DNA of 64,000 nucleotides from Morchella semilibera. Taxonomy: Eukaryota; Ascomycota; Pezizomycetes; Pezizales; Morchellaceae. Of the stretch, positions 2,181-24,089 are shown piece by piece. A program made the translations under genes and the position numbers. Positions within the stretch are counted from its first letter, which is position 1, and every line of letters starts with the position of its first letter. The notes beneath the pieces are model-generated. The model had not been told where the DNA came from. It made no database searches and saw only the letters and a program-made list of their open reading frames with translations. The stretch covers positions 1,568,731-1,632,730 of the forward strand of contig WBVU01000005.1 of NCBI GenBank assembly GCA_009192285.1, in the 5' to 3' direction.

Positions 2181-2909
2181 ATGGTGAATAACATTCGAAA
2201 TCAAAGTCTGTCTTTTCTCCGCATTATCCAACACAACTGCACTGGGAGCAATCTTGTGTTTATAACTCTCTTTTCTCTTTCAATGGTTCAAGCTTTCCAC
2301 GTAGTAGCCGTGCAAGAACCTCCGCTCTTTAACGGAAAACCGCTCTCTACTCCTTCGTTTACACTGTACTCACCTACGCCTACTCTCCCTACGGATAAAA
2401 TTTCAGTATGTTTTTATATTGCCAATTCTCTACTAGAAAAGAACTCCGCATCTGTTATTCCATCAGCCCGCGGTGATCTTGTTTCAGCCAATATTTTTCT
2501 TAAAAGCTCGGCGACCTCCTACTCAACGGTTAATATTATTAATATTTATAAGCGTCAAAATGCATCTCATATCCGCTCTGTCGACCCGAAGGATATTTTC
2601 CTTTACTCTCACAACCCAACAATTGCTCTCGGGGACTTCAATATTCACTCTCCACAAGCAGATCCTCTTCGCTCCTTTTCATCCAGGGAGCTAAACCTAT
2701 CACAACCCTACTTTGACGCTGCTTCACAATTCGCGTACCCCCTAGTCAATAACCCAGGAGTGTATACAAGAATCTCACCAACCCACTTACAACGACACGG
2801 GGTTATTGACCTCGCTTTCGCCAACCTCAGGGCCAGCTCCCTCATCAAGGAATGGCTCCCCCTGTCCAACGATACAGGATCTGATCACAGAGTGCTAGCT
2901 ATAACTTTG
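2181..2909 (+). pseudogene. LINE ORF2, 5' part: APE-type endonuclease domain
   Basis: Begins at ATG 2181, directly after the ORF1 stop. All expected endonuclease/exonuclease/phosphatase motifs are visible in order: IIQHNC near residue 15, VAVQEP (catalytic Glu) near 45, ALGDFNIH near 150, HGVIDLAFAN near 210 and GSDHRVLAITL near 240. This domain nicks the target DNA to start target-primed reverse transcription. The frame is open until Gypsy element A enters at 2910. The protein continues at 14974 (next part listed separately). No missing catalytic residue was seen in this part. Confidence 0.85.
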
Positions 2910-3382
2910 TGTTACGGAGCGAAGCGAAGACAATTGAACAGAGAGCCAAGGTTCGCAACCTAGGCGGGATGAGAAGCAACGACGAAGACGAGAACGAGAA
3001 CAAACACTATGGGTAGGGACTATGGGCGAGGGCGGCTGTGGCGAGGCGAAGGGGTCACGTGGTTCCTGGTGATATACCAAGCGAAGATACTTATAGATAC
3101 GATCGTATATTCCTAGAGACAAAACAAGACGAGACTAAAGACGAAACGAGACGAAGACCCTATATAGGAGGGTTGATAACAGGAAGACGAAATAGAGAAG
3201 AAAGAGAAAAGAAGAAGAAGAAGAAGAACCCATAACCGAATATATATACTAGTCCATACCCCTGTCCGTAATGACTCATACTCCGTGTAATGGAAACTCA
3301 TAGAAACCAAAAGAGAGAACCCGAACCATAACCCATTCCCAAATATCCTTCCTTCCCCTGTAGCCCATGTTACGCCGTGATA
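2910..3382 (-). repeat. 3' LTR of element A
   Basis: 473 bp, TGTTACGG at one end and CCGTGATA at the other on the plus strand. The termini are near-perfect inverted repeats but not the usual TG...CA. It matches the right-hand LTR almost base for base. Confidence 0.92.
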
Positions 3383-14144: not shown

Positions 14145-14225
14145 TGCGACCGAGGCGAAGCAAGACGGAAGCGGTTGTTGCGAAGGTTGGCGGTGGTACG
14201 ACTTCGTCTTAGTGTTACGGAGCAA

Positions 14226-14372
14226 CATCAGCAAGACTTCATTTGTCTCCTGTTGTCTCCTGATGTCTCCTGAGCCTCAGGAGACTCAAAAAATCTCTAG
14301 GAGTCTCAGGAGAGTCTCAGGAGACCCGGGAGACTGTTGGGAGACTGCAGTCATAAGTTGAGTTTGCTGATG
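14226..14372. mobile_element. CATCAGCAA small inverted-repeat element, copy 1
   Basis: 147 bp with termini CATCAGCAAG and TTTGCTGATG, inserted in the 5' LTR of element A. Flanks are AA and GA where the intact LTR has one GA, consistent with a 2-bp duplication and one later change. The interior is made of TGTCTCCTGA and CAGGAGACTC units on opposite sides, so it can fold back. It has one extra 10-base unit compared with copies 2 and 4. Confidence 0.82.
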
Positions 14373-14528
14373 GAAGCGAAGACAATTGAACAGAGAGCCA
14401 AGGTTCGCAACCTAGGCGGGATGAGAAGCAACGACGAAGACGAGAACGAGAACAAACACTATGGGTAGGGACTATGGGCGAGGGCGGCTGTGGCGAGGCG
14501 AAGGGGTCACGTGGTTCCTGGTGATATA

Positions 14529-14665
14529 CATCAGCAAGACTTCATTTGTCTCCTGATGTCTCCTGAACCTCAGGAGACTCAAAAGATATCCGGGGGTCTC
14601 AGGAGACTCTCAGGAGACCCGGGAGACTGTTGGGAGACTCCAGTCACAAGTTGAGTTTGCTGATG
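14529..14665. mobile_element. CATCAGCAA small inverted-repeat element, copy 2
   Basis: 137 bp, flanked by TA on both sides. The uninterrupted left LTR of element A has a single TA at this place, so the 2-bp target duplication is directly visible. It lies only 156 bp from copy 1. Confidence 0.88.
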
Positions 14666-14973
14666 TACCAAGCGAAGATACTTATAGATACGATCGTATA
14701 TTCCTAGAGACAAAACAAGACGAGACTAAAGACGAAACGAGACGAAGACCCTATATAGGAGGGTTGATAACAGGAAGACGAAATAGAGAAGAAAGAGAAA
14801 AGAAGAAGAAGAAGAAGAACCCATAACCGAATATATATACTAGTCCATACCCCTGTCCGTAATGACTCATACTCCGTGTAACGGAAACTCATAGAAACCA
14901 AAAGAGAGAACCCGAACCATAACCCATTCCCAAATATCCTTCCTTCCCCTGTAGCCCATGTCACGCCGTGATA

Positions 14974-16768
14974 CTTTGGCTATGCCGGACTCAGATTTCA
15001 CTGTAAAAAATCTCCCCAACTGGAAACTTACCGACTGGGCCAAGCTGAACCCAGTCCTCAAAAATCTCCAAGTTCCCCCTCCTCAAACACACAAAGAGAT
15101 CGATACATGGTTCGACTCCTCCCTGAAAACGGTTATCGACACTGTTTTAAGCCATACCCCCAATAAGAAGGTCTCCAAATGGTCAAAGCCATGGTGGAAC
15201 CCCACCCTCTCCCAACTACGCACAATCTTCCATTCTGTGCAACGAGCCTATAGAAAAGGCCGCGCCCCTCACTTCGAAGCCAAAGCAACCAAAAACGCCT
15301 ACTTCAATGCAGTCAAACGCGCCAAACTATCACGGCGTGGAATATGGTTTAGCGGTGTTGCGGGAAGAGGGATTAGTCAGGGATTCTTCTATGTTCTTTG
15401 GGTTTCGGAAGCAGGGGTTCGGTTCGTTAATAGGGGATCGGGATTAGGGGATAAGGTCGGGTTCGGGGTTATGGGCTTTGGGAGGTTCTATGGAATTCTG
15501 TATAGGGATATTCGGGTTAGTCATCGGGTCGGGTGATGAGATATATATATAGGCCTTACCCTCGCTTGTAGATAGTTTTCCTTTCTTTTCTCTTCACGCG
15601 ACCTTCCTATCTTCAGGAGTTTGTAGTCCTTTAGAATATACTCAGTTCTCTGGTTCTACTTCGTGTCTCGCCTCGCCCCCATAGTTTCTCCTCGCCCCAC
15701 TTCGGATACTATAGTTTCATCCCGCCTCGGTAGTGTACCTTGGTCGTTCCGCCCAGTCCCCCGCTTCGCTCCGTGATACAAACAGAATCATTGGGATTCG
15801 TATGTCGCGAATGCCGAAGCCAAAGATGTATGGAAGCTAAAGAAAATGGCAAACCGCACCGAGGATAGAATCCCATCCCTCCCCAACTCCCCTACTCCGA
15901 TTGCAATTAACAACAATTTGATTAATGCATTCTTCCCTCCTCAACCGGAAACCCCCCCACCATCAGCACTCCCCTTTTCCAATGTCCCCGCTATCACGCC
16001 AGAAGAGATCTTCTCGGCCCTTAGCCCTACTTCCAACCTATCAGCACCAGGCCCAGACTCAACCCTGTACCCGGTCTGGAAAGGCATACATAAGGCCAAC
16101 CCTATAGTTCTCACCTCTCTCCTCAACCCTCTTCTCCAACATGGATACCACCCCTTGAGCATGAAAAAAGCCAATGGAGTTATCCTAGCCAAACCAGGCA
16201 AGCCAGACTATACAGTCCCAGGTGCATACCGCATCATAGTCTTTCTCCAAACGATATCCAAAATACTAGAGAAGATTGTCACGCTTCGGCTAGCAAGGAT
16301 TGCCAGAAATACCGGCCTGATCCACCCTCACCAATGCGGCTCAATCGCAGGTCTCTCCACCGCCGATGCCGCGACCACCCTCATCCACGAAACCAGAGCC
16401 ATGCAGCATGCCGGCCTCAAGGTCTCAACCCTCTTTCTTGATATAAAAGGAGGCTTCGATCCTGTTCTGAAACAAACCCTAGGCCCTACCCTAGCGGGAG
16501 GTCAAGTACCAGCCTATATGATAAAGTGGATACTGTCCTTCCTTTCAGATCGGTATATTACCCTGCTCTTCAAAGGTTCCCCAAAAATCTCTACCCCCGT
16601 TCAAGTAGGAGTACCACAGGGCTCCCCCATTTCCCCTCTTCTCTTTTTAATTTATATAAATTTTCTTCATCAATACGACCCACACCCTGGAATTTCACTT
16701 TCTTATGTGGACGATCTAGCCATCACGGTAGGATCAAACTCATACCAGTCTAATGTTGACTGCCTCAC
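14974..16768 (+). pseudogene. LINE ORF2, middle part: linker and reverse transcriptase
   Basis: Continuation of ORF2 after element A. Residues from 14979 (AMPDSDFTVKNLPNWKL) are the linker between endonuclease and reverse transcriptase. A solo LTR splits it at 15328-15778. From 15846 the reverse transcriptase motifs are clear: GPDSTLYPVW, ANGVILAKPGKPDY, STLFLDIKGGFD (motif A, first Asp), GVPQGSPISPLL (motif B) and SYVDDLAITV (YVDD active site, motif C). The frame is open from 15784 to the insertion of element C at 16769. The polymerase core appears complete. Confidence 0.86.
15328..15778 (+). mobile_element. Solo LTR of a Gypsy family related to A and B
   Basis: 451 bp with perfect 8-bp inverted ends (TATCACGG...CCGTGATA), flanked by CAAAC at 15323-15327 and 15779-15783. 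No internal region remains, so it is the product of LTR-LTR recombination. A TATATATATA box at about 15541-15550 suggests plus-strand orientation. It splits the LINE ORF2 linker, and the LINE frame is continuous once it is discounted. Confidence 0.9.
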
Positions 16769-17172
16769 TTTCATGGATACGTTAGGTTCGGAGGACTGGA
16801 AGGATTGGCAGGGATGGGATTATTGTAAGCTCGGAGGTGGGAATGAGTCAGAGTAGGTTCTATGGGTTTCCGTTATGCAGGAATGTGAGTCATGTTTGGG
16901 GTTACGCGAGGGTATGAGTCAGGCTTGGCTCCGGAAATATTGGATATATAAGGGAGGCAACGGTGCCTACTCCTGTAGTTTCTTTCTTCTTCTTTTCTCT
17001 TTACGCAACGTCTTCTGTAACTAGTATTCAATATACTTTATAGTCTCTACTTCTTTAGTGACTATCGCTGTTCGCTCGACTTCTTCCCCATACCTCTCTT
17101 ATACTTGAGTCGTATCGTTGTCACCCCTCGTGCCCTGTGGAACAAAGCTACACCGCCACCCCCTCCTTGAGA
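16769..17172 (+). repeat. 5' LTR of element C
   Basis: 404 bp, TTTCATGG to CCTTGAGA. A GGATATATAAGG box at about 16951 is a plausible promoter. Confidence 0.92.
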
Positions 17173-17206
17173 TTACGTTGCGTCGTCATCCACACTGCAC
17201 CCAACC

Positions 17207-18645
17207 ATGTCCGCCCCGGCTCCTCCACCTCCTCCCCCAGCCACCATTGTGGATGGGGTCACCCTCGATGGCCAGTACCAAATCCCTCAGACCTTCACAG
17301 AGTTCGAAGCAGTGGAGGACCTACACTATCATTATGTACATCTCCTAACCCTTATACGGGAAGGGGATCGATGGAAGTCAGAACGGGATGCTAGCCGAAA
17401 CTTACACGCCCAAACCAGGCAAGAGTTGACCACCGCAAGGGACCAACTCACCGCCTCCAATAACCACACCGATGCTCTGGAAGCTCAGGTTCGCACCCTG
17501 GAATTCCAACTCGCCGCGGCCCGAGCTCCACCACCACCACCACCACCACCACCACCACCACCCCCAATAATACCTCCCCCAGTTAACGCCCCACCTCCAG
17601 CCTTCCGTTCCGAGAAATTTCCAGACCCCCCAAGTTTAACGGAACCCGTAGGGAGCTACCTGGATTCCTTAATCTCCTCCGCACCAAACTCAGGGTAAAT
17701 CATGACAGGTTCCTGAATGAGGAGGCTAAGGTATTCTACGCTCATCAGCAAGATTTTACAAGTCTCAGGAGATTACAGGGGTCTCAGGAGACTCAGGAGA
17801 CTGTCAGGAGACTCAGGAGACTCCAGTCACAAATAGTAATGCTTGCTGATGCTGTTTCTCGGTTGGAAGGAAAGGCGTTGGACCAAGTCATTCCCATGGC
17901 CACTGGAGACGCTCCCCCATTCGCTTCGGTCGCTACCTTCGTTGCATTCTTGGAAGCCTCCTTCGGGGACCCAGACCCCCGAGGTACCGCCAGGAGGGAA
18001 CTTCAGAACCTCCGCCAGGGCAAGGGAGACTTCGCCACCTACCTTACACAATTCTTGCGTGTTATGGGCCAACTCGACTACAACGAGGAAGCCAAGAAGG
18101 ACGCCTTGGAAAACGGACTGTCTGACGATCTTAAGGACGCAATGATATATCAGGATACCACCATGGAGGAGTTTGATGCCTATGTAAGGAGGCTTATGAC
18201 CATGGATAATAGGATTCGGGCCAGAAAGGATGCCCATAAGGCTAATCGGAATCCAATGGGACAATTTGCTTCCTCACCTGCCCCCCCACATCCATCGCAC
18301 ACCCCAGGGGGCCTCGCCCCTATGAATTTATCAGCTCTTCAAGCCCGCCCCACCATACGTCCTCCACCAGAAGGGCGATATACGTTTACCCATGGCCGTC
18401 GACAGACCACCCCCGCTGAAAAGAAATGGAGAATGGCGAATGGCCGCTGTGCCTACTGCGCCGCTCCTGACCATGTGTTCGCCAACTGCCCCCAAGGCAA
18501 TCGCCCGCGTGCCCCCCCTCCGGCTATAAGAGGTGCCGCCCTATCTGCTCCCCCCGTCGCTCCTATTGAGATTTCTGCCCCTATTTCTTCCTCTTCTTTG
18601 TCTACGGATATTGTGTTGTCTTCTGGTAATTCGGGTTTTCAGTAG
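17207..18645 (+). pseudogene. gag region of element C (fossil)
   Basis: Same design as the gag of B: an N-terminal segment with coiled coil (DALEAQVRTLEFQLAAAR), a polyproline run at about 17527-17570, capsid-like sequence (SRLEGKALDQVIPMATGD, LQNLRQGKGDFATYLTQF) and a CCHC knuckle (CAYCAAPDHVFANC) near the end. A small inverted-repeat element is inserted at 17743-17851. Confidence 0.85.
17743..17851. mobile_element. CATCAGCAA small inverted-repeat element, copy 3
   Basis: 109 bp, shorter in the interior, flanked by CT on both sides, inserted in the gag of element C. Ends are CATCAGCAAG and GCTTGCTGATG. Confidence 0.85.
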
Positions 18646-18734
18646 TCCCTGGCCAGTATCATGGCCCTCGCCAGGGACCTTCAAAGGAATTTTCTTTATC
18701 TGCGTTTTCTATTTCTGGGTTTTCGGTTTCGGTT

Positions 18735-21700
18735 ATGGCAGAGGAGGAATTAAATGGAGACCACTTAGTTGTAGCTTGTAACATTGCTCACAATAAGGAC
18801 TCTATTTCCACCTATGCTATGATTGATACTGGTGCCTCGGGATTCGCATTTATCGATGAAACCTTTGCGCGCATCACCAACTTCCTCTTCTCCCTCTTAA
18901 AATACCTCGTACTCTTGAGGTGATCGATGGAAGGCCTATTGCATCCGGACAAATTACCTCGATATGTCGTGTACCTTTATTTATTGGCTCTCATCAAGAA
19001 CAAATTCCGCTCTTTGTTACCAAGCTGGGACAGTACCCCCTAGTTCTTGGTATCCCTTGGCTACAACATCACGATGCCACTCTTAAATTTAAAGATAATA
19101 CGGTTGCCTTCGACTCCGAGTTCTGTAAAAAGAACTGCAATTCTACAGTTACCCCCGACACTATTCCCGGGATAAAGCCTCCAACCTATATGATAGGCCC
19201 TGTTCCTTTCAGTCGCCTCGCTCGTCGCAAACAATTACAGATCTGCAGTATAACATTGTACAAGATTGAGAAGGCTCTTCAAGATGCCCCAAAGGATGGA
19301 TGGAAACAAAAGATCCTCGAACGCTATCATAATCGGTTAAATATGTTCGATGAAGCCTTCGCCCAGGATTTACCGCCCCGACGCCCCTATGACCACAAGA
19401 TACCTCTAAAGGAAGGCAAGGAGCCTCCATTTGGTCCTCTCTATGGCATGTCTAGGGATGAGTTGCTTGCACTCAGGGACTATATTCAGGAGAATCTTTC
19501 TAAGGGTTTTATCCGCGCCAGTTCGTCTCCAGCTGGGGCGCCGGTATTATTTGTTAAGAAAGCTGATGGGTCTCTTCGCCTCTGCATGGATTATCGAGGA
19601 TTAAACGAGCTGACGGTCAAGAACCGATACCCCCTACCATTGATTCGGGAAACTTTGGACCGGCTTTCAAAAGCCAAGTGGTATACTAAGTTGGATTTAC
19701 GACAGGGGTATAATCAAATTCGCATGGCCGAAGGGAAGGAGTGGAAAACGGCGTTTAGGACCCGTTATGGTCACTTCGAATATACCGTGATGCCATTCGG
19801 TCTTACCAATGCACCCGCTACCTTTCAACATTTTATTAATGACTGCCTCCGAAAACATTTGGATCAATTTTGCACTGCATATTTGGACGACATCCTTATA
19901 TATAGCGACTCCCTCGAGGAACATGAACAACATGTCGAAATAATATTGGGAGTACTACAGGAGAACGGAATTCTGCTGAAACCAGAGAAATGCGAATTCC
20001 ATACTCAAAGCACTACTTACCTTGGGTTGATTATCGAACCCAATGGCATTCGCATGGATCCTCATAAGGTATCGGCGGTACAAGAATGGACTACTCCTAG
20101 GTCGGTTAAGGATGTGCAAGCCTTCCTGGGCTTTGCCAATTTTTACCGCCGCTTTATTTTTGGATTTTCGAAACTTGCATCTCCCCTGACGAAACTTACA
20201 AAAAAGAATGTTCCCTTCTTGTGGACCTCGGAAGCAGAGGTAGCATTCCAATCCTTAAAAGAGGCCTTTACCACCGCCCCCATCTTGATTCATTTCGACC
20301 CCGAAAAACCAATTATGGTGGAAACAGATGCGTCGGACTATGTTGCCGGTGGTATACTTTCTCAATGTGATGAACAAGGAAAATTACACCCTGTGGCGTT
20401 CTTTTCTAAAAAACATACGCCTGCAGAATGCAATTACGAAATTTACGATAAGGAGCTATTGGCGATAATTAGATGTTTCGAGGAATGGAGGCCGGAGTTG
20501 GAAGGAGCTAAACATCCTATTGAGGTTATTTCGGACCATAAAAACCTCGAATATTTCATGTCCACTAAGCAGCTTAACAGGAGACAAGTACGATGGGCCG
20601 AATATTTGTCGCGTTTTAATTTTATTATTAAATACAGACCGGGGAGGCAGAGCGGGAAGCCGGACGCGTTGACTAGGAGATCAGGAGATCTCCCTGAGGA
20701 AGGGGATGAAAGATTGTTGCATCAGAGTCAAATGGTTTTGAAGAAGGAAAATTTGGATCCTAAGCTAAGTTTGTTAGCGGATTCTTTAGCAAATGAACCC
20801 GCTGAAAAGAACGCCTCCCTACAGAAATTATTCGATGAAGGATACTTAGCTGACCCATTCCCACAAAAGATTTTGGACCTACGGCAGACAGATACAAAAC
20901 ACTGCAAGGAGATATCCCTAGCGGAATGTACTGAAGTGGACGGCCGCCTGCTCTATCGCGAGAGCATCTATGTTCCCGACTACGCACCACTGAGGCTGGA
21001 GATTCTGAAACAATATCATGACGCCCCCTCGACAGGACACCCTGGCAGAGAAAAAACCTTTGAATTGGTTAGCAGGGATTATTACTGGCCAAATATGCGT
21101 GATTATATCGGTCAATATATTCGGAATTGCCACATCTGCCAGCGAAGTAAGCCAACGACACATGGGAAGTTAGGAGTACTTCGACCGCTACCTATACCAG
21201 AACAACCTTGGAGAGAGATATCTATGGATTTCGTCACGGGCCTACCAGAAAGTGAAGGCTACGATGCTATATTGGTGGTTGTGGACCGGCTTACGAAGAT
21301 GCGTCACCTTGTACCCTGCAATACTATAGTTAATGTGGAAGATTTAGCCGATCTATATTTGCAACATGTTTGGAAGCTACATGGTCTACCCACACATATT
21401 ACGTCCGATAGGGGAACCCAATTTACCGCGAAGTTCTGGAAATCCCTTTGCAAGCAGTTGAAAGTTGAAGCCAGAATGTCAACAGCCTTTCACCCGGAGA
21501 CAGATAGTCAAACAGAGAGACTGAATGCAGTGATGGAGCAATACCTCCGAGGGTATGTGTCATATCAACAGGACGACTGGGCTAAGTGGTTGCCGATGGC
21601 GGAATTCGCAGCAAATAATCAAGTGTCAGCCTCCACCAAAGCTACTCCGTTCTTCGCCAACTATGGTTACCACCCTTGATTTACTATGAATCTACGGAAA

Positions 21701-22408
21701 TTAGAAAACACTCCACCGAGCATCGATGCCTACGACTTTGCAGGTAAAATGAAGGAATTACATGACTATTTACGAACTCAACTTCGGACTGCCCAAGATC
21801 AACAAGAGAAGTCAGTCAATACAAAGCGTACTCCCGCCCCACGCTACGAAGTGGGAGACATGCTGTTTGTATCAGCGAAGAATATTCGGACTTCACGGAA
21901 CTCCAGGAAACTCGATTGGAAAAGACTGGGACCTTTTCCCGTGCAAGAGATTGTTTCACCCTATGCTTATCGATTAAACCTACCTAGTTCGATGAAGATG
22001 CATCCCGTCTTCCATGTTTCCTTGTTGGACCTTGCCGCCACCGACCCTGTACCAGGGCAGATACAACCACCACCCCCGCCTGTTATTGCTGATCAAGAAG
22101 AGGAATATGAAGTCGAAGAAGTCTTGGATTCGAGATATCATGGGAAGCAGGGACTTCAGTATTATGTGAAGTGGACGGGGTATGCTGATCCTACGTGGGA
22201 ACCTGCCGATTACCATCAACAGACTGCTGCTGTCGATAATTTCCATGTACGCTATCCTGTTAAACCAGGACCGGGGGAAACCAAGGCTCGCAGGAGCTTG
22301 CGCTTGAAGGGAGGGGCTACTTTCATGGATACGTTAGGTTCGGAGGACTGGAAGGATTGGCAGGGATGGGATTATTGTAAGCTCAGAGGTGGGGATGAGT
22401 CAGAGTAG
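18735..22408 (+). pseudogene. pol region of element C (fossil)
   Basis: Order of parts: aspartic protease (AMIDTGASGFAFIDETF), reverse transcriptase (LYGMSRDELLALRDYI, DLRQGYNQIRMAEGKEW, AYLDDILIYSDSLEEH), RNase H (VETDASDYVAGGILSQ, EIYDKELLAIIRCFEEW), integrase (HPGREKTFELVSRDYYWPN, MDFVTGLPES, TSDRGTQFTAKFW) and a C-terminal chromodomain (LQYYVKWTGYADPTWEPADY at about 22150-22215). The long middle section is one open frame of more than 900 residues. It is broken elsewhere. Confidence 0.88.
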
Positions 22409-22724
22409 GTTCTATCGGTTTCCGTTATGCAGGAATGTGAGTCATATTTGGGGTTACACGAGGGTATGAGTCAGGCTTGGCTCCGGAAATATTGGATATA
22501 TAAGGGAGGCAACGGTGCCTACTCCTATAGTTTCTTTCTTCTTCTTTTCTCTTTACGCAACGTCTTCTGTAACTAGTATTCAATATACTTTATAGTCTCT
22601 ACTTCTTTAGTGACTATCGCTGTTCGCTCGACTTCTTCCCTATACCTCTCTTATACTTGAGTCGTATCATTGTCACCCCTCATGCCCTGTGGAACAAAGC
22701 TACACCGCCACCCCCTCCTTGAGA
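22321..22724 (+). repeat. 3' LTR of element C
   Basis: 404 bp copy of the 5' LTR. Seven of the nine differences are G-to-A or C-to-T when read from the 5' to the 3' copy. The end of the pol frame runs into it. Confidence 0.92.
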
Positions 22725-24089
22725 CTCACCGCCCACTACGCAAAATTAGTCAGCCTAGCTACCCCACGAAATGTGAGCTTCTCAGTGGCCAAAACAGAAT
22801 TTATCTACTGGAGAACCTCAAAAGACCGCAACCCCCAATGCCTTATTCCTATTATTTTAGAAGGTACCAGGTTCCCCCCATCACCGAAAGTCAGATAGAT
22901 AGGCTTCTGGCTCGATCAAACATTCAACTCCAATACACACTTCATCCACAAACTTGCGGCAGCACAGGCAGCCTTTGGTCTCATTCAACGCTTTCATCCG
23001 CGGGCAAAGGCCTCTCCTCAAGGAATTGCCTAAAGCTCGCCACCCTAGCCATTCGCCCCATGCTTACATATGAAGCCACAGTCCTCACATCAGCAAGACT
23101 TGATTTGTCTCCTGATGTCTCCTGAGCCTCAGGAGACTTAAAAAATATCCAGGAGTTTCAGGAGACTCTCAGGAGACCCGGGAGACTACTGGGAGACTCC
23201 AGTCATAAGTTGAGTTTGCTGATGCACTCCCTCGGGGTCCTTGAAGCCTATTACAAAGTTCTGGAATTCAGTACTTAGGTGGGCCACGGGATGCTTTAGA
23301 GCTACGAATCTCAGAGCACTCACTATATGCAGAATCTGCTTCACCCCCTCTTGATCTGTATCTACACTTCCTCCGCACCAAGTATGCAATTAGAATTGCA
23401 ACCGCCTCCCCCTCGGTTAAGCCAGTAACAGGGAGAATACCCCAGAACTTCCCAGTTCTGTCCACAACCAGGGTATACTCCCACACAATACTCCTCAAAG
23501 GAAGACCCAATCCTCCAAAAAAATGGGACTCTAAAGCCGTCAAAGGGGTTAACCCTCTTCCAATCGATGCACTATGCCTTCTGATCCGTCCCCTAATCGA
23601 AGCCGGCACTCCCCTACAACAAATGGCGATTCAGGCCAAAAGAAACCTGGTCCGGGATTGGAGGGAACTCTTCCCCCCTCCCCCGACTACTACCCATACC
23701 CCCCACAGCTAAAATTACCAATTTTTACGTCTCTCCACAAATTCACAACCTCCAGAATCCACCAGATGAGAGTCTGTAAAAGCTATCTCAGGGCACACAA
23801 ATCCTGGATCAATATTACATCCCCGGATACCTGCACACACTACGGCACCGCTGCAGAAACCACCCAACACGCAATTTTTGAATGCCCTACTAAGGAAAAT
23901 AGTAGAAAGGCACTCCTCCCAAATACCACCTCCCTTGAGGAAATTTTCGACAGCCTCCCTCTAACGCTTGTGCTAGCCGCATATATCACTGCTACCAAAA
24001 CCAATTTTCCAGTTGATACTGCTCCATCTCCCTTGTTGTTAGGATCAATATCCTCTACTCTAAGCTCAGTCTCACTTGATTTCCTCTGA
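22725..24089 (+). pseudogene. LINE ORF2, C-terminal part
   Basis: Resumes after element C with AHYAKLVSLATPRNVSFSV and KTEFIYW, the thumb-side region of LINE reverse transcriptases, then carries the small inverted-repeat insertion at 23088-23224. Downstream text reads in at least two frames: LDLYLHFLRTKYAIRIATA and VYSHTILLKGRPNPP at about 23350-23530, then CKSYLRAHKSWI and the Cys/His motif CTHYGTAAETTQHAIFEC at about 23780-23890. The last motif matches the CCHC-like cluster that closes many LINE ORF2 proteins. No RNase H domain was recognised. Frame changes here show decay or sequence errors. Confidence 0.72.
23088..23224. mobile_element. CATCAGCAA small inverted-repeat element, copy 4
   Basis: 137 bp, flanked by CA on both sides, inserted in the LINE ORF2 C-terminal region. 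Nearly identical in layout to copy 2. Confidence 0.87.

Follow-up and report, generated by a model that had tools for sequence, protein, structure and literature searches.

The MITE family described here has four copies in the window (the whole 64,000-nucleotide stretch of Morchella semilibera DNA analysed) and very probably represents a high-copy member of the PlavakaB lineage (EnSpm/CACTA-related, CMCT clade), moved by a Plavaka DDE transposase supplied from elsewhere in the genome. The assignment was made through the ends of the MITE and its target site duplications (TSDs). The MITE shares its tip with Plavaka elements of the same genome, and its TSD class as well; a direct parent was not found.

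Copies and copy number of the MITE family

The first-pass annotation had placed four copies of 109-147 bp with a common terminal inverted repeat in the window, and this was confirmed: all of them lie on the forward strand, start with CATCAGCAAG and end with TTGCTGATG. Copy 1 (14226-14372, 147 bp) and copy 2 (14529-14665, 137 bp) are both within the second of two long direct repeats (2905-3382 and 14208-14972, with two blocks of 98.7% and 100% identity) of an LTR-like element, element A. Copy 3 (17743-17851, 109 bp) is found in a Gypsy-type element (16769-22724, with RT, RNase H and integrase), where it separates the 5' LTR from the pol ORF; this element is itself inserted in LINE-like sequence with flanks CTCAC/CTCAC, and its LTRs appear to start with TTTC and end with GAGA, not TG..CA. 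Copy 4 (23088-23224, 137 bp) is in repeated sequence that we infer, from an RT ORF at 15846-16856, to belong to a degraded LINE-like element, as its downstream part. Copy 3 belongs to a distinct subfamily of 108-109 bp with the tip CATCAGCAAGATTTTAC, and similar copies were seen in loci L047, L049 and L065.

In the host genome assembly (56.76 Mb, 23 contigs) the exact 20-mer of the MITE 5' end occurred 548 times and the 18-mer of the 3' end 690 times, against none for the reversed-pattern controls; therefore the window copies are not chance resemblances. When copy 2, together with its flanks, served as a genome query, there were 949 first-look candidates, 40 of which were scored, and 45 matches. 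The interior, built of GTCTCCTGA/CAGGAGAC units, can fold back as annotated: copy 2 as a single strand did so better than 200 of 200 shuffles (z -4.33). With lengths of 109-147 bp in the window and 105-147 bp among the sampled copies, there is no room for a transposase.

The sample comprised 58 distinct copies from the window and 68 loci (L001-L068), the latter being the 8 top BLAST hits, spread over several contigs, and the first 30 places of each of two genome searches, these 60 being all on contig C1. Copies were included when both ends were present, with at most one mismatch per terminal 9-mer, at a length of 90-170 bp; one false pairing (a 163-bp row in L065) was kept in the set and counted as a miss. 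Exactly 137 bp was the length of 47 of the 58, and these diverged from the majority sequence by a median of 3.65%, a figure biased by selection because the copies were chosen for ends within one mismatch. At L099:46-204 a MITE lies inside another MITE; its flanks, TA/TG, are consistent with a TG duplication in which one base has changed, and related copies read TG at that place.

Target site duplications and empty sites

An exact 2-bp TSD flanked 51 of the 58 copies, as compared with a 2-bp match in 11% of cases when flanks of different copies were paired by chance (binomial P about 3e-41). Twelve dinucleotides were duplicated: TA in 11 copies, AA in 9, CA and TT in 7 each, GA in 4, TG and AG in 3 each, CT and GG in 2 each, and AT, TC and CG once. 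The MITE thus shows an A/T preference, for TA above all, without a fixed target sequence. Those lacking a 2-bp match were window copy 1, due to a base change (see below), the 163-bp false pairing, L050 and four others. Longer exact flank matches were rare, with 3 bp in 1/58, 4 bp in 2/58 and 5-10 bp in 0/58. One of the two 4-bp matches, TATA, was a 2-bp match too; the other, GACT in L050, was not, and L050 fits this 4-bp duplication better than a 2-bp one. The tabulation of flanks proposed in the first-pass annotation, here over 58 sampled copies, bore out its reading of a mobile, non-autonomous family with a 2-bp duplication of no fixed sequence.

Tc1/mariner elements duplicate TA only, and the TSD of Mutator elements is 9 bp. 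A TA-specific element (Tc1/mariner, or the PHISTA or ESTA groups) would agree with TA being the commonest TSD, but 40 of the 51 duplications are other than TA; on this table Tc1/mariner and the other TA-only groups were rejected, and the chance that such an element explains the family is negligible. The TSDs of hAT, Mutator and PIF/Harbinger elements likewise do not fit the 58 copies, of which one had an exact 3-bp match and none a match of 8 or 9 bp, in agreement with the exclusions already made from the four window copies; those of hAT and PIF/Harbinger are 8 and 3 bp, respectively, in the relevant passages of PMC12730594.

Empty sites were found for each of the window copies. The joined flanks of copy 2 with a single TA are identical over 300/300 bases to window positions 2927-3226, in the other terminal repeat of element A (2905-3226, forward strand), so that one TA became two, as had been noted. 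The same repeat, from 2905, provides the empty site of copy 1: it reads GGAGC-GA-AGCG, and the filled site has GGAGC-AA on the left and GA-AGCG on the right. Since the empty site contains GA, the AA/GA flanks of copy 1 correspond to a GA duplication whose left copy has changed from GA to AA. For copy 3, the join (71 bases, single CT) had 27 listed matches, among them its own two halves from the window; the best two aligned at 99% over 70 bases with no gap, and these empty sites are other copies of the host retrotransposon. The join of copy 4 (72 bases, single CA) gave 7 matches in all, two of them the window's own halves; the remaining 5 cover all 72 bases at 83-88% identity, and four of these resemble two pairs of haplotypes. 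The flanks CT/CT, CA/CA and AA/GA given in the first-pass annotation are accordingly duplications of CT, CA and GA. Contig pairs C9/C10, C12/C13 and C21/C22 of the assembly (G000) have several parallel matches whose coordinates almost coincide, as though the assembly retained two haplotypes for some chromosomes.

Plavaka transposases and full-size elements in the genome

A 2025 paper on fungal transposons (PMC12730594) attributes to PlavakaB families, in its passages on these groups, the termini 5'-CATCA..TGATG-3' and TSDs of 2 or 3 bp; PlavakaA families have TGT..ACA ends with 2-bp TSDs, and EnSpm families CAC..GTG ends with 3-bp TSDs. The same passages place Plavaka and EnSpm in the CMCT clade, where most ends are CA..TG and TSDs are of 2-5 bp. 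CATCA..TGATG termini were present in the four window copies and in the other loci read (the 58-copy set having been selected for such ends), and the exact 2-bp duplications and the empty sites agree with the TSD length of PlavakaB. In the light of these passages, the reading that the ends fit no described group is not supported, nor is an undescribed type of transposon, though this particular MITE family may still be unlisted. The hint at CMC/CACTA in the first-pass annotation was right.

The profile PF18759 (Pfam Plavaka) matched the host genome 128 times among the matches listed (123 scored of 153 candidates), all marked as over the cut-off, the last one only together with its neighbours in frame; no match was found in 14 control genomes. 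The transposase is absent from the MITE itself and present in elements of two families, here named P1 and P2, with CATCAGCAAG tips. If the MITE belonged to a canonical EnSpm/CACTA family and depended on an EnSpm transposase, CA..TG ends, short TSDs and the clade would be shared with our family, the CMCT clade as a whole having CA..TG ends in most cases and 2-5-bp TSDs in PMC12730594; however, the MITE has CATCAGCAA ends and 2-bp TSDs in place of CAC..GTG and 3 bp, and the elements with MITE-like tips in this genome carry a Plavaka transposase (the search having used the Plavaka model). EnSpm proper was rejected on its ends, and we consider an origin in the EnSpm/CACTA family very improbable.

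Two copies of P1 are 99.93% alike over 5,579 bp, and their agreement ends within one base of the CATCAGCAAG tip. In the copy on C1, two ORFs match PF18759 (1.8e-51 and 1.6e-14), and the 5' tip, CATCAGCAAGCCTATTC, and the 3' tip, CATCAGCAAGATTCAAAC, are located at 1925528 and 1936188, 10,661 bp apart (1925601-1927999 between them unread). This copy sits inside a MITE copy. Its flanks, GACTGGAGTC before the 5' tip and TCTCCCAACAG after the 3' tip, continue each other in the MITE majority sequence GGAGTCTCCC, so that its duplication is TC, with the empty site taken from other MITE copies and the left half of the MITE altered at its outermost positions. Two further P1 copies were read at one end each: on C7 the 5' tip follows TA, and on C2 the 3' tip is flanked by TA. 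The motif CATCAGCAGTCTCC inside P1 was rejected as its 5' tip, as it belongs to a 101-bp tandem repeat; units of this repeat, with CATCAG(C/T)AGTCTCCGGAGA, occupy L074:3376-3950, and their number varies between insertions. P1 also has related ORFs of 333 aa (L069:356-1357, C1 copy) and 413 aa (L074:1744-2985, C2 copy, further upstream), whose DNA is about 77-81% alike in two blocks and which had no Pfam match; they are possibly a duplicated accessory gene.

The P2 family has a 1000-aa ORF matching PF18759 at 2.6e-74, with a C2H2 finger below its own cut-off, and the 3' tip CATCAGCAAGCTTGCAGTTGTCTCC. The exact 24-base P2 end occurred 20 times in the host genome (reversed control 0), and for 19 of these ends a listed Plavaka match lies 1.4-2.6 kb upstream, in the right orientation; the sole exception, C9:738768, is the apparent counterpart of C10:739060, which does have a Plavaka match upstream. 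No 5' end was found for P2, although L072 and L075 extend to 8.2 kb from the 3' tip; neither has a further CATCAGCAAG. Another 14 stretches, each of 2 kb and downstream of a Plavaka domain, were read, and in 12 of them a CATCAGCAAG tip had the expected orientation; in the other two, the only CATCAGCAA end of L086 was in the opposite orientation and L085 had none. A 1006-aa Plavaka ORF is present in L071 (G000:C17:139500-146000), where no CATCAGCAA end was found in the stretch read; this element may belong to PlavakaA and end differently.

Relation of the MITE to Plavaka elements

Comparison of the first 25 bases of the MITE with the Plavaka ends gave 21 shared bases for P2, 19 for the P1 3' end and 15 for the P1 5' end, and 16 and 17 for L096 and L095, two candidate ends seen in one locus each. 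The terminal 10 bases (CATCAGCAAG) were common to the MITE and all Plavaka ends compared. Beyond them, P2 agreed with the MITE in 11/15 of positions 11-25, a score that random window positions reach at a frequency of 0.0002, and L096 carries the same TCTCCTGATG as the MITE at positions 21-30. At its 3' end the MITE has only 11-14 of 25 bases in common with the Plavaka ends. GTCTC/GAGAC units number 8 in the 137-bp MITE, against a window background of 0.34; each P1 end holds 2 (P 0.02-0.03), the P2 end a single one (P about 0.24) and two other candidate families none. The units are not clearly enriched in the Plavaka ends, and the counts give at most a faint indication that they might be transposase sites common to these ends.

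A search for the 18-bp 3' end without the MITE interior returned 5 places, under an interior-excluding filter that lets through no more than about 42% of unrelated sequence, and at none of them did the longer ends of the MITE bound a full-length element. Four resemble small MITE variants (C1:1886613 was read; for the other three the judgement used the 30 letters matched), and the fifth, which was read completely, is the nested MITE of L099 described above. C1:2330284-2333247, with a MITE-like end downstream of a Plavaka match, was rejected as a full-length partner, the end being that of a complete 137-bp MITE within the transposase region. The first-pass annotation had expected a transposase elsewhere in the genome, in a longer element with the same ends. 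At the level of the group this stood, as P1 and P2 share the 10-bp tip; the MITE's own partner, with its longer ends, was not found in the search.

Convergence on these tips by a MITE from some undescribed lineage would be in line with the failure of the 3'-end search to find a full-length parent and with the restriction of the sequence common to all ends to their first 10 bases. Against it stand the agreement with P2 in 21 of 25 terminal bases, a TSD of the same length as that of the P1 copy, and the terminal features published for PlavakaB in the passages cited from PMC12730594. We consider convergence very improbable, and retain the assignment to PlavakaB. As compared with PlavakaB as described there, the family has the same CATCA..TGATG termini and 2-bp TSDs, in a genome rich in Plavaka transposases, some with the CATCAGCAAG tip; it differs in being only 105-147 bp long, without a transposase and with its own repeated interior.

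Under this assignment, we infer that the MITE is mobilised in trans by cut and paste. A Plavaka DDE transposase produced from another locus would recognise the CATCAGCAAG tips, probably with some subterminal bases, pair the ends and excise the element; the interior GTCTC/GAGAC units might conceivably be binding sites, the Plavaka ends compared carrying only 0-2 of them. Insertion at staggered cuts 2 bp apart would then duplicate almost any 2-bp target, A/T-rich steps and above all TA being preferred. The P1 copy inside a MITE, with its TC duplication, supports the duplication of 2 bp by the Plavaka elements of this genome. More tentatively, and with the odds somewhat against it, several Plavaka families of one genome might move such a Plavaka-tied MITE, the 10-bp tip and a short subterminal stretch being sufficient and the foldback interior being the MITE's own and not the remnant of a parent.

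In the mushroom Marasmius oreades, Plavaka is among the dominant DNA elements, and non-autonomous families with the TIRs of an autonomous one have been described for hAT, according to the relevant parts of PMC8290104 and PMC9674265; the likeness to our case is in the abundance of Plavaka and in the presence of non-autonomous families. No earlier report of a Plavaka-linked MITE was found in the limited set of literature searched, and one may exist in print.

With this family, the recently defined PlavakaB group gains a very abundant non-autonomous member with clean empty sites, one well suited to tests of the terminal bases that a Plavaka transposase requires. In repeat annotation, short CATCAGCAA..TTGCTGATG repeats of such genomes can be filed as Plavaka-type.
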